Below, in pieces: positions 51,858 to 54,568 of a stretch of 64,000 nt of DNA. Below the pieces are notes generated by a model. That model worked only from the letters and a program-made list of their open reading frames with translations, made no database searches and had not been told where the DNA came from. Made by a program: the position numbers and the translations under genes. Within the stretch, counting starts at the first letter, position 1. The number at the start of each line of letters is the position of its first letter. Location of the stretch: positions 62,001 through 126,000 of the forward strand of contig NZ_JAHKRR010000002.1 in assembly GCF_018863395.1 (NCBI RefSeq), read 5' to 3'. The stretch is from Sinomicrobium weinanense. Lineage in GTDB: Bacteria; Bacteroidota; Bacteroidia; Flavobacteriales; Flavobacteriaceae.

Positions 51858-52988
51858 ATGAAACTATTCGACGTTTACCCATTATATGATATTACTCCGG
51901 TACGGGGAAAGGACGTTTTTGTTTACGACGAAAATAACACATCTTACCTGGATCTTTACGGAGGTCATGCCGTGATCTCCATAGGGCATTCCCATCCCCG
52001 GTATGTATCGGGCATTTCCGGGCAGTTGCAAAGACTTGGCTTTTATTCCAATGCCATACAGAACCCGCTACAAGCCGAACTGGCCCAAAAACTCGGCGCC
52101 CTTTCCGGGTGTGACGATTACGAACTCTTTCTCTGCAACTCCGGGGCCGAAGCCAATGAAAACGCCTTAAAGCTCGCCTCCTTCCAGACAGGAAAGGCAC
52201 GCGTTATTGCCTTTAAAAATGCCTTTCACGGAAGGACATCCGCCGCAGTAGCTGCCACAGACAACAAAAACATTGTTGCCCCGCTTAACGCACAACACCG
52301 GGTAACCTTTCTGGAAATGGGAGACACCACTTCCCTGGAAAGCGAACTTCAAAAAGGAGATGTCTGCGCCGTGATCGCAGAATTTATACAAGGTGTAGGC
52401 GGACTGGATGAAGCCCCCGCCGGTTTCTACGAAAAAACCGATAAACTCTGCAAACAATACGACAGCTTGTTCATCGCCGACGAAATACAGTGTGGATACG
52501 GCCGTACAGGTGATTTTTTCGCCTTTCAGAAGTATAACATAACACCAGATATCATCTCCATGGCCAAAGGTATGGGCAATGGTTTCCCCGTAGCAGGCAT
52601 CCTTATACACCCATCCATAAAGGCCAGACACGGCATGCTGGGCACCACCTTCGGAGGCAATCACCTGGCCTGCGCCGCAGCCATAGCCGTACTGGATGTG
52701 CTGAAAGAAGAAAACCTTATGCAGAACGTCACCGAGATTTCCGCATATTTTACCGAAAAAGCCAAATCCATACCCCAAATAAAACAAATCAAAGGCCGGG
52801 GATTGATGCTGGGACTGGAATTCGATTTTAAAGTGGGTGAACTCCGCAAAAAACTCATCCATGACAAACATATCTTCACCGGCGGAAGCAGTAACAAGAA
52901 ATTGTTGCGTATTTTACCTCCGCTCACCGTGAAAAAAGAACATATTGATACGTTTTTTGACGCACTTAAAACAATTCTTCCCTCGTAA
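51858..52988 (+). CDS. argD: Acetylornithine/succinylornithine aminotransferase (class III)
   Basis: A 376-residue PLP-dependent class III aminotransferase. ATG 51858 (MKLFDVYPLYDITPVRG) is preferred; an in-frame ATG 25 codons upstream adds no conserved sequence. Key blocks are CNSGAEANENALKLA, KNAFHGRT, IADEIQCGYGRTGDFFAF and the PLP-Lys block DIISMAKGMGNGFPVAG. TTFGGNHLACAAAIAV and the C-terminal LRILPPLTV are typical of ArgD. It lies in the middle of the arginine cluster. Immediately after the stop is the DUF559 element. Confidence 0.95.
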   Translation: MKLFDVYPLYDITPVRGKDVFVYDENNTSYLDLYGGHAVISIGHSHPRYVSGISGQLQRLGFYSNAIQNPLQAELAQKLGALSGCDDYELFLCNSGAEANENALKLASFQTGKARVIAFKNAFHGRTSAAVAATDNKNIVAPLNAQHRVTFLEMGDTTSLESELQKGDVCAVIAEFIQGVGGLDEAPAGFYEKTDKLCKQYDSLFIADEIQCGYGRTGDFFAFQKYNITPDIISMAKGMGNGFPVAGILIHPSIKARHGMLGTTFGGNHLACAAAIAVLDVLKEENLMQNVTEISAYFTEKAKSIPQIKQIKGRGLMLGLEFDFKVGELRKKLIHDKHIFTGGSSNKKLLRILPPLTVKKEHIDTFFDALKTILPS

Positions 52989-52998
52989 GAGAAAGAAA

Positions 52999-53447
52999 AG
53001 CTCCCCTCTTGAGAGGGGCCCGGGTGTGTAAAGCAAAAAATTTGAAAAGAAGAAAAATCATTCCATATAACCCAAAACTAAAAGAGCTCGCCAGGCAGTC
53101 ACGTAACAATAGCACCAAGGCCGAGATCATTCTCTGGACAAAACTGAGAAGAAAACAACTATACGGATATGATTTTCACCGGCAGAAACCCATAGATAAT
53201 TATATTCTCGATTTTTTCTGTCATGAACTTATGTTGGGTATTGAAGTGGATGGATACTCACATGGTATCGTGGAAGTTTATAAAAAGGATGTACAAAAAG
53301 AACAAACAATGAGCAGATTAGGGATACAAGTCCTTCGGTTTACGGACGAACAGGTTCTGAAAGATACTGAAAATGTGTTGAGGGCTATTGAGGCTTATAT
53401 ACATGAATATGAAGTACACACCCCCAACCCCTCTCAAGAGGGGAGCT
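52999..53447. mobile_element. 449-bp inverted-repeat-bounded element encoding a DUF559 nuclease
   Basis: Left end 52999-53030 and right end 53415-53447 are near-perfect inverted repeats. The outer 20 bp (AGCTCCCCTCTTGAGAGGGG and its reverse complement) are identical; the inner parts differ by one base in length. Each end contains its own hairpin CCCCTCT-TG-AGAGGGG. The element starts 11 bases after the argD stop and sits in the gap before argF'. It resembles REP-type elements that carry their own DUF559 gene in Bacteroidota; the comparison is from memory, not searched here. Confidence 0.8.
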
Positions 53448-53449
53448 AA
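53042..53449 (+). CDS. DUF559 domain (Vsr-like) endonuclease
   Basis: A 135-residue protein with a PD-(D/E)xK-like DUF559 core. It shows LRRKQLYGYDFHRQKPIDNYILDFFC, then ELMLGIEVDGYSH (D57, E68, D70, H74 in my numbering), the same fold as the very-short-patch repair endonuclease. No ATG lies in a sensible place. TTG at 53042 is chosen because MKRRKIIPYNPKLKELARQ is the usual N-terminus; an earlier TTG at 53009 falls inside the left inverted repeat. The last 10 codons (TPNPSQEGS) are read from the right inverted repeat and the TAA straddles its edge. Presumably it nicks or processes the repeats for mobility; that role is inference. Confidence 0.85.
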   Translation: MKRRKIIPYNPKLKELARQSRNNSTKAEIILWTKLRRKQLYGYDFHRQKPIDNYILDFFCHELMLGIEVDGYSHGIVEVYKKDVQKEQTMSRLGIQVLRFTDEQVLKDTENVLRAIEAYIHEYEVHTPNPSQEGS

Positions 53450-53548
53450 GTTTCGTTTTCCTGAAGGAAAACATCTGATAACCACGTAACCCAAGATATA
53501 ATCAACTCCAAAACTCCCAAACTAAATAACTTATTAACTAAAGAACAA

Positions 53549-54496
53549 ATGAAACATTACCTGACAACAGACGACATAGAAAACCTCCCGAAAACCATAG
53601 CAGACGCTATTGCCTTAAAACAGGCCCCTTATAAGTTTGAACAACTCGGTAAACACAAAACACTGGGGATGTTGTTCTTCAATTCCAGCCTGCGTACCCG
53701 CCTCAGCACACAAAAAGCGGCCATGCAACTCGGAATGCAGGTCATGGTGATGAATTTTTCGGGAGAAGCCTGGTCGCTGGAGTTTGAGGATGGTAGTGTT
53801 ATGAACGGTTCCACCTCCGAACACATCAGGGAAGCTGCAGCGGTTATATCGCAATACTGTGATATCATAGCGGTCAGGGCCTTCCCTACCCTCACGGACA
53901 AGCAGAAGGACGAAAATGAATACGTGTTAAAGAGTTTCCAGAAATACGCCTCCGTCCCTATTATAAATATGGAAAGTGCCACCGGGCACCCACTTCAGGC
54001 GTTGACCGATGCTATTACCATTACCGAACAGAGAACAAGGGAAAAACCCAAAGTGGTCCTCTCCTGGGCTCCGCACCCCAAGGCATTGCCCCATGCCGTG
54101 GCCAATTCCTTTACCAGCATCATGCAAAAGATGGATGCAGACTTTGTCATCACCCATCCCGAAGGATATGAACTCAATCCGGAAGTCACTGGCGATACCC
54201 CGATCATCTACAATCAGGATGAAGCCCTGAAAGATGCTGATTTCGTTTATGTAAAAAGCTGGAGCTCGTACAGGGATTACGGTAAAGTGTTGCACACCGA
54301 TCCCAACTGGAGGATCACAGCCGACAAAATGGCGCTGACCAACAACGGCAAATTTATGCACTGCCTGCCCGTAAGGAGAAACATCATTGTGGATGACGCT
54401 GTTCTTGACAGCCCGCAATCCATCGTCATACCACAGGCCAATAACCGTACCTTTGCAGCACAGGTAGTTTTAAAACAGATCCTTGAATCTATATAA
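53549..54496 (+). CDS. argF': N-acylornithine carbamoyltransferase (ArgF' type)
   Basis: A 315-residue transcarbamylase acting on an N-acylated ornithine rather than free ornithine, as in Bacteroidota. Carbamoyl-phosphate residues are in FFNSSLRTRLSTQKAA (Ser46-Thr-Arg loop). TWAPHPKALPHAVANSF and HCLPVRRNIIVDDAVLDSPQSIVIPQANNRTFAA are the signatures of this branch. At position 90, where Bacteroides N-succinylornithine transcarbamylase has Pro and the N-acetylornithine enzyme has Glu, this protein has Ser (GSTSEHI). Specificity is therefore uncertain. It starts 99 bases after the DUF559 ORF and 102 bases after the DUF559 element. Confidence 0.93.
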   Translation: MKHYLTTDDIENLPKTIADAIALKQAPYKFEQLGKHKTLGMLFFNSSLRTRLSTQKAAMQLGMQVMVMNFSGEAWSLEFEDGSVMNGSTSEHIREAAAVISQYCDIIAVRAFPTLTDKQKDENEYVLKSFQKYASVPIINMESATGHPLQALTDAITITEQRTREKPKVVLSWAPHPKALPHAVANSFTSIMQKMDADFVITHPEGYELNPEVTGDTPIIYNQDEALKDADFVYVKSWSSYRDYGKVLHTDPNWRITADKMALTNNGKFMHCLPVRRNIIVDDAVLDSPQSIVIPQANNRTFAAQVVLKQILESI

Positions 54497-54506
54497 TGAC
54501 GATGTA

Positions 54507-54528
54507 GAGACGAACGGTCGTTCGTCTC
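54507..54528. repeat. REP-like palindrome, copy 2 (argF'-argB junction)
   Basis: Perfect 10-bp arms (GAGACGAACG with CGTTCGTCTC) around GT. A trailing GTCTCAAACGAGAC may form a second, competing hairpin. It starts 11 bases after the argF' stop. Confidence 0.75.
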
Positions 54529-54568
54529 AAACGAGACCGGGATTTAACAGCCCATTAAAAATATAAAA

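Follow-up and report, generated by a model that had tools for sequence, protein, structure and literature searches.

A DUF559 nuclease gene between inverted hairpin repeats in Sinomicrobium weinanense: a possible counterpart of the RAYT-REP pairing

The window, that is, the whole stretch of 64,000 nucleotides analysed here, comes from the genome of Sinomicrobium weinanense (G000) and holds a small nuclease gene enclosed by inverted hairpin repeats. The unit lies between two open reading frames that are presumably argD and argF', as named in an earlier note on this DNA. The features, by position in the window, are:

51858-52988, + strand: open reading frame, argD, left neighbour (context)
52999-53031, + strand: left end repeat, with AGCT, the hairpin CCCCTC-TTGA-GAGGGG (53003-53018), a linker and the G-rich tail GGGTGTGT facing the gene
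53042-53449, + strand: DUF559 (PF04480) nuclease gene for a product of 135 aa, with TTG as the probable start codon and TAA as the stop
53416-53447, - strand: right end repeat, in inverted orientation with its tail toward the gene; it codes for the C-terminus HTPNPSQEGS and the first stop base
53455-53472, no strand: AT-rich palindrome GTTTTCC-TGAA-GGAAAAC, directly outside the right end
53549-54496, + strand: open reading frame, argF', neighbour on the right and fixed point for comparing empty sites

The earlier note had described a self-contained unit of 449 bp, set between argD and argF' and bounded by inverted ends that each form a hairpin, with a DUF559 gene filling it and running its final ten codons through the right repeat; our analysis confirmed this architecture in each of these points. 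Indeed, the arms at 52999-53018 and 53428-53447 are complementary at 20 of 20 positions with 409 nt between them, and they form the only pair reported by an inverted-pair search of 52800-53650 (minimum length 12). The same hairpin stands in both ends, folds by computation, and has on its inner side a short linker and then a tail rich in G (GGGTGTGT or GGGGTGTGT). The likeness continues past the outer 20 bp (...GAGAGGGG-CCC-GGGTGTGT against ...GAGAGGGG-TTG-GGGGTGTGT), and a repeat length of 32-33 bp is therefore fair. The open reading frame matches PF04480 with 99.9 bits (cut-off 20.6), its other Pfam match, MTES_1575, being sub-threshold only, and its stop occupies 53447-53449. To judge from the sequence, TTG 53042 is the likely start, since the aligned codon in the congener G249 is ATG; the two gene copies agree at 366 of 405 bases. 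Within 52900-53560, Rfam gave no match, and PADLOC returned a single weak one (DpdF, E 0.0024). Note that a second hairpin type (GTAGAGACG...CGTCTC) occurs at 54503-54540, between argF' and argB.

The unit was compared with two familiar classes. As an insertion sequence, it has terminal inverted repeats but no target-site duplication beside 52999 and 53447 (by eye) and no transposase domain in the open reading frame (Pfam scan). As a REP-RAYT system, it has a reading frame that is DUF559 by Pfam and not Y1/HUH (PF01797), and no GTAG tag was seen by eye at the hairpin foot, where AGCT stands outside and GGGTGTGT inside.

A structure model of the protein built from 51 sequences (pLDDT 89.2, pTM 0.82), together with profile matches, places it in the EDxHD/Vsr-like nuclease fold. 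The best structural match is 3hrl (Neisseria NGO0050; E 2.1e-7, profile 3.7e-29), followed by the catalytic domain of I-Bth0305I (3r3p; Foldseek E 4.7e-4, TM 0.79 on target, profile 1.2e-5), and the alignment holds 19 invariant columns, including E24, D53, E64, D66, G67 and H70, as counted from the codon at 53054. The E. coli relative YcjD has been placed among PD-(D/E)XK nucleases near Vsr (PMC1189080). The Caulobacter member VsrA supports the view that DUF559 proteins can cause DNA damage, being responsible for the SOS response seen in a subset of cells without a solitary methylase (PMC12907096). A study of Legionella evolution reports as recombination hotspots segments that hold both a DUF559 gene and a transposase (PMC12308824). 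A repeat partnership of DUF559 is not described in the portions seen of the literature searched, a body that takes in few subscription journals.

The repeats of the window belong to a dispersed family in this genome. The earlier note had proposed the outer 20-bp arm as the mark to follow and held that a repeat found only here would argue against mobility; the exact arm was seen at one further place only (C1:560858), whereas sequences within 2 mismatches of the 16-bp hairpin stand at 47 distinct places (50 hits when counted by strand; the control, the reversed pattern, gave 3), most of them in the CCCCCC variant, so that the repeat is not confined to this site. Twelve hairpin pairs lie at most 150 bp apart, every one in (-,+) order; the five that were fetched carry their tails outward around an AT-rich palindrome, and for the other seven the outward tails are deduced from hit strand only. 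Many of the dispersed copies that were fetched have, by eye, an AT-rich palindrome placed like the one outside the right end of the window element. Among pairs no more than 600 bp apart, the window element alone shows the reverse order, its tails pointing inward with the gene between. G000 has only 2 DUF559 genes, and the second (L031, C25:153631-153948), from a different lineage, has at its 3' end a repeat of its own type, with a GGGAGGGGTGT tail and the same design as the window repeat; no repeat copy was found on its 5' side.

Comparison of relatives at the same site bears on the mobility proposed in the earlier note, which had set an identical gap in all relatives as evidence against it. 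Among the six genomes of the genus compared by eye, the argD-argF' site holds the element in G000 and G249 and a solo AGCTCCCCTCTTGAGAGGGGAGCT in G251, with recognisably homologous DNA on both sides, and shows no such hairpin in G250, G094 and G252; relatives without the element at this site thus exist. As a separate observation, a hairpin resembling the argF'-argB type fills the argD-argF' gap of G094 (L147; by eye). The single intact hairpin of G251 could be a target or the product of a deletion through the shared AGAGGGG, as a deletion would leave the same product. Of 7 Mucilaginibacter genomes, 4 (four species) carry the element upstream of the same conserved gene; G255 has none there, with a left neighbour like that of three carriers (by eye) and an element elsewhere (L243), and the remaining two have different neighbours and no element there. 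A larger difference was found in G033, where a 2.09-kb stretch made of repeats, a 354-aa open reading frame within inward repeats, the DUF559 gene and further repeats corresponds in the congener G260 to 190 bp with a degenerate AGGGTGTG...CACACCCT palindrome, with 93-97% identity on either side. The 354-aa frame (L119, 1270-2420) is a predicted membrane protein without clear family, its Pfam matches (DUF4153 and MscL) being both sub-threshold only. It is possibly cargo, enclosed by repeats of the same type as those of the adjoining DUF559 gene.

In E. coli, a ycjD match is present in 3365 of 5426 genomes, with the sapF-fabI setting throughout the matches listed. Just downstream of ycjD lies a sequence that fits, by eye, the published TMECO consensus, and the median number of places in a genome that match this downstream region is 13. 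In three opened genomes that lack ycjD, efflux genes stand at the site (L287-L292, the sapF-fabI loci), so that no clean empty site was obtained among them for a strain-level test of mobility; an exchange of ycjD with the eef operon has been reported too (PMC12817139). In one E. coli strain ycjD is incomplete, and the gap downstream of it is shorter by about 106 bp. Since ycjD keeps one setting in the E. coli matches listed and four Mucilaginibacter species carry the element at the same gene, residence appears to be old and stable in these cases. The variation of the site within the genus supports in part the mobility proposed in the earlier note, though insertion and deletion would look alike at the argD-argF' site; against recent mobility stand the missing target-site duplication, the lack of a clean strain-level event, the long residence of some elements and the many loci without flanking copies.

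Beyond the window, PF04480 was found in at least 98 of 249 genomes drawn from the family, and 97 zones were taken around the shorter DUF559 frames among the matches listed (including nine of 346-573 aa), the set leaving out the long frames (for the most part 700-1300 aa) and some matches that were fragmentary or lay at a contig edge. Inverted flank repeats scoring at least 14 occur in 36 of these 97 zones, compared with 0.44% of 2729 shifted zones in the same loci and 3.0% of 970 cross-locus pairings, and direct repeats at the same score in 43 of 97 compared with 1.3% of the 2729 shifted zones; flanks were long enough in 94 of the 97 for one flank test. At a score of at least 15 within 700 bp, direct repeats were found in 66 of 97 zones, some of them hundreds of bases long, and at one locus, L109, DUF559 is present as a tandem pair. 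These shifted and cross-locus controls exclude chance or base composition as the cause of the flanking repeats. The inverted ends described in the earlier note as a terminal-inverted-repeat element are thus real but only part of the picture, because many DUF559 genes lie between direct copies. The long frames of about 700-1300 aa (L033-L036, L038-L041 and others) hold many DUF559 domains and have a different context.

The pairing recurred in three further collections. Inverted or direct repeats flank 56 of 78 named-genome loci among the matches listed (80 loci from at least 549 relatives, 2 of them too close to a contig end), compared with 1.33% of 3917 shifted zones, and 54 of 74 once four loci shared with the first set are removed. 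Judged by record title, the positive loci include members of Bacteroidota, Chlorobiota, Ignavibacteriae, Zixibacteria, Planctomycetota and Desulfoferrobacter, and the sole locus titled Nitrospirae was negative. Another draw from the Bacteroidota, which shares no locus with these sets, yielded flanking repeats at 16 of 26 loci compared with 9 of 383 control zones (3 of its 29 loci lacked orientation by motif). Of the 12 plasmid-collection loci opened, from 38 records and without a shifted control, 6 have flanking repeats that match each other; on pSymB of Sinorhizobium meliloti these form an inverted pair of 114 bp (score 104). Both E. coli records are among the six plasmid-collection negatives. 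Our findings demonstrate that the nuclease-repeat pairing spans phyla and is broader than a single operon, and also that a quarter to half of DUF559 loci have no clear flanking copies (22 of 78 named, 10 of 26 in the Bacteroidota draw and 6 of 12 plasmid loci).

The type of repeat follows the lineage of the protein. In a test on 87 proteins, kept after nine fusions above 260 aa and one member of a tandem pair had been set aside, and with premature stops read as X for distances only, the share of between-genome pairs whose upstream non-coding flanks (-300 to -75) score at least 14 rises from 2.2% to 61% with rising protein similarity. The rank correlation with the protein is 0.23 for the upstream and 0.32 for the downstream flank, and 0 of 300 permutations reach either value. 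For DNA 1.2-1.4 kb away, the correlation is not above the permutations (44 and 65 of 300), although among the most similar proteins 4.9% and 12% of the pairs still pass the mark there, which means that a few loci have wider surroundings in common. Within one genome, none of 32 pairs of differing DUF559 proteins share flanks at that level. Taken with the between-genome tracking, this indicates that the repeat goes with the protein lineage and not with the genome. A linked repeat co-diverging with its gene could account for part of the signal. The two partners also tend to occur in the same genomes. The full window-type motif is present in 14 of 395 genomes of the phylum, 13 of which have a DUF559 relative against 144 of the 381 others (p 4e-5, with taxa that are not independent), and within the family PF04480 is found in 14 of the 16 hairpin genomes against at least 84 of 233 others (p 6e-5). 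Note that 7 of these 16 genomes with the exact hairpin have, among the matches listed, long DUF559 frames only (five, of about 1000 aa or more) or none (two), and that two of the seven carry 6 and 12 hairpin copies.

The repeats share a further regularity across lineages, a tail that tends to be the mirror image of its hairpin's 3' arm, with T or A opposite A, as in GAGAGGGG-TTA-GGGGTGTG, GGGAGGGG-TTA-GGGGTGGG, AGGAGGGA-TTG-AGGGAGGT, AAGGGGG-TTA-GGGGGTTG and GGGGAGAGGG-TTA-GGGTGAGGGG. Over 32 distinct stem classes, chosen for GGG in the tail and at least 3 C in the 5' arm and each represented by a single drawn hairpin, tails fit their own stem at 6.69 of 8 positions, a value that 0 of 5000 permutations reached, and permuted stems at 5.71 of 8; the corresponding count is 264 of 5000 for a model in which the tail copies the arm directly and 1821 of 5000 for an inverted copy; the rule was noticed and then tested on the same loci. 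The tail base opposite G is G in 126 cases and A in 3, and opposite A it is T in 25, A in 23 and G in 4. In a wider, unselected set, a fit of 7 of 8 is attained by 140 of the 296 hairpins close to DUF559 and by 38 of the 235 in other parts of these loci; the mirror tail is thus enriched and not exclusive, since control hairpins have it too. In one lineage (L192, L196, which equals L105, L200, L208, which equals L096, and L132), the stems of the two ends differ, with TCCCCTCT..AGAGGGGA on the left and TCCCTCCT..AGGAGGGA on the right, and the tail of either end corresponds, by eye, to the stem of that end. This correspondence between stem and tail is the code of an intramolecular purine-motif triplex. 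Abundant intrastrand triplex motifs (TM) were described by Holder et al. in 2015, TMECO being a class II purine motif triplex whose oligonucleotides adopt the triplex fold in vitro, as CD and NMR demonstrated (PMC4666352). The mirror purine-rich tail of TM class II is present in the repeat family, and imperfectly in the left end of the window element (GGG for GGGG). From their sequence, the ends of the window element are triplex-type repeats already in print, with the fold predicted. That study found no mobility gene near its motifs, and its available text has no mention of endonuclease, DUF559 or ycjD (PMC4666352).

Altogether, the explanation that we favour, with a confidence that is about evenly balanced, is that the unit is a cognate pair, in which a single-domain DUF559 nuclease would spread the hairpin-mirror-tail repeat that stands at its ends. 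The nuclease would recognise the repeat, most likely as an extruded or single-stranded hairpin or triplex during replication, and would nick or break the DNA there; repair by recombination or template switching may then copy repeats, repeat pairs and sometimes the gene. Copying into or between other repeat copies would yield both the inverted and the direct repeats around the gene, and selection on the pair would keep enzyme and repeat matched. Such a nuclease may have the role supposed for RAYT at REPs, performed by an unrelated enzyme and with a flavour of homing.

Other explanations must be weighed against this one. The nuclease may instead tend the repeats as a host (or addicted) repair enzyme that resolves triplex or hairpin trouble without spreading anything, its adjacency to them reflecting autoregulation. 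The old residence in E. coli and Mucilaginibacter, the Vsr-like fold, the link of triplex repeats to instability (PMC4666352) and the solo hairpin of G251, which shares both outer flanks as a deletion product would, are all consistent with such an enzyme; we nevertheless consider it unlikely, if credible, because it leaves unexplained why the gene is bounded by inverted or direct copies in differing surroundings, why the repeats are lineage-specific and why similarity ends outside the unit. A methylase-linked mismatch repair of the VSP type, with incidental repeats, could appeal to the Caulobacter VsrA work (PMC12907096) and to a weak fold match of the model to Vsr (1cw0, E 0.31), but it gives no reason for matched flanking repeats, there is no methylase gene between the ends of the window element, and it seems to us quite improbable.

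The repeats themselves might owe nothing to the nuclease. If RAYT or another transposase moves them, DUF559 would be a mere resident, and since the 354-aa frame of G033 is enclosed by the same inward repeats, other genes can indeed sit between copies; G000 also has three RAYT-like genes (PF01797; L149, L150, L151). However, each of these lies beside its own, differing palindromic repeats, and their flanks score only 10-12.5 against the DUF559 flanks, so that the repeat-nuclease pair of G000 shows no link to them. In other genomes, RAYT and DUF559 flanks reach scores of at least 15 in four pairings (28 for L254-L126, 16.5 for L260-L122, 16 for L265-L126 and 15.5 for L251-L125). Y1_Tnp, the transposase family covered by our search, is absent at E 1e-5 from 11 of 24 genomes chosen for such DUF559 loci, including G033 with its 133 exact hairpins, and DUF559 lineage and repeat type change together, all of which makes a passenger role improbable. 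Finally, hairpins that fold, with AT-rich DNA outside, could be ordinary terminators or insulators that bound a small gene. On the argD strand no T-run is seen by eye at the left end, a mirror tail is no feature of a terminator, an earlier study cited in PMC4666352 found no promoter or terminator activity for PIT/TM motifs, and the shifted and cross-locus controls speak against a signal of this kind, which we regard as very improbable.

Returning to the cognate pair, a nuclease that recognises and cuts its own repeat would thereby spread it, and the hunch of the earlier note was on the right track. A bolder version, which we put forward tentatively and at less than even confidence, is that DUF559 would be the missing engine of the triplex repeats, a second REP system that reads a three-stranded fold through a stem-to-tail code changing by lineage and that drives repeats, gene and some cargo. 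The nuclease may be the partner that a widespread family of orphan repeats has lacked, and a lineage-matched nuclease partner makes the origin of triplex repeats testable in E. coli K-12, with YcjD and its repeats. In addition, it would offer a second REP-like system, unrelated to the first, to compare with RAYTs and would point to a role for DUF559, a common domain of unknown function; should the nuclease truly read a three-stranded DNA fold, this would be an unusual mode of DNA recognition.

Several known systems resemble the unit in part. The protein is a DUF559 member like E. coli YcjD, Neisseria NGO0050 and Caulobacter VsrA, and it shares its fold with I-Bth0305I and the EDxHD homing endonucleases (3r3p; PMC9403480); 3r3p is by its PDB name a mobile-intron protein, whereas the window gene is intergenic between repeats. 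The repeat resembles the intrastrand triplex motifs TM, TMECO, PIT and BoxC in its C-rich and G-rich arms with a loop between them, in the 3-nt linker (TTA or CCG) before a G-rich mirror tail, and in the inverted pairs (PMC4666352). Unlike in that study, where no mobility gene was found according to its available text, one nuclease family is here tied to the motifs. As in the REP/REPIN-RAYT systems (REPtron) and TIRtrons (PMC3733652, PMC3116915), a gene is flanked by a short dispersed palindromic repeat, here within inverted copies of it, and the repeat is dispersed as singlets and inverted pairs, as REP/REPIN are (PMC3733652); 'CGTC' REPs, too, have no known transposase (PMC3733652). The window-type repeat differs from REP in its mirror-symmetric triplex tail, and the enzyme is a PD-(D/E)XK-type nuclease, unlike RAYT, a Y1/HUH transposase. 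The analogy with REP and RAYT drawn in the earlier note is supported by the like architecture, the dispersed repeat family and a repeat type that follows the protein lineage, and by this analogy we judge the chances about equal that DUF559 takes, at these repeats, the place that RAYT has at REPs.
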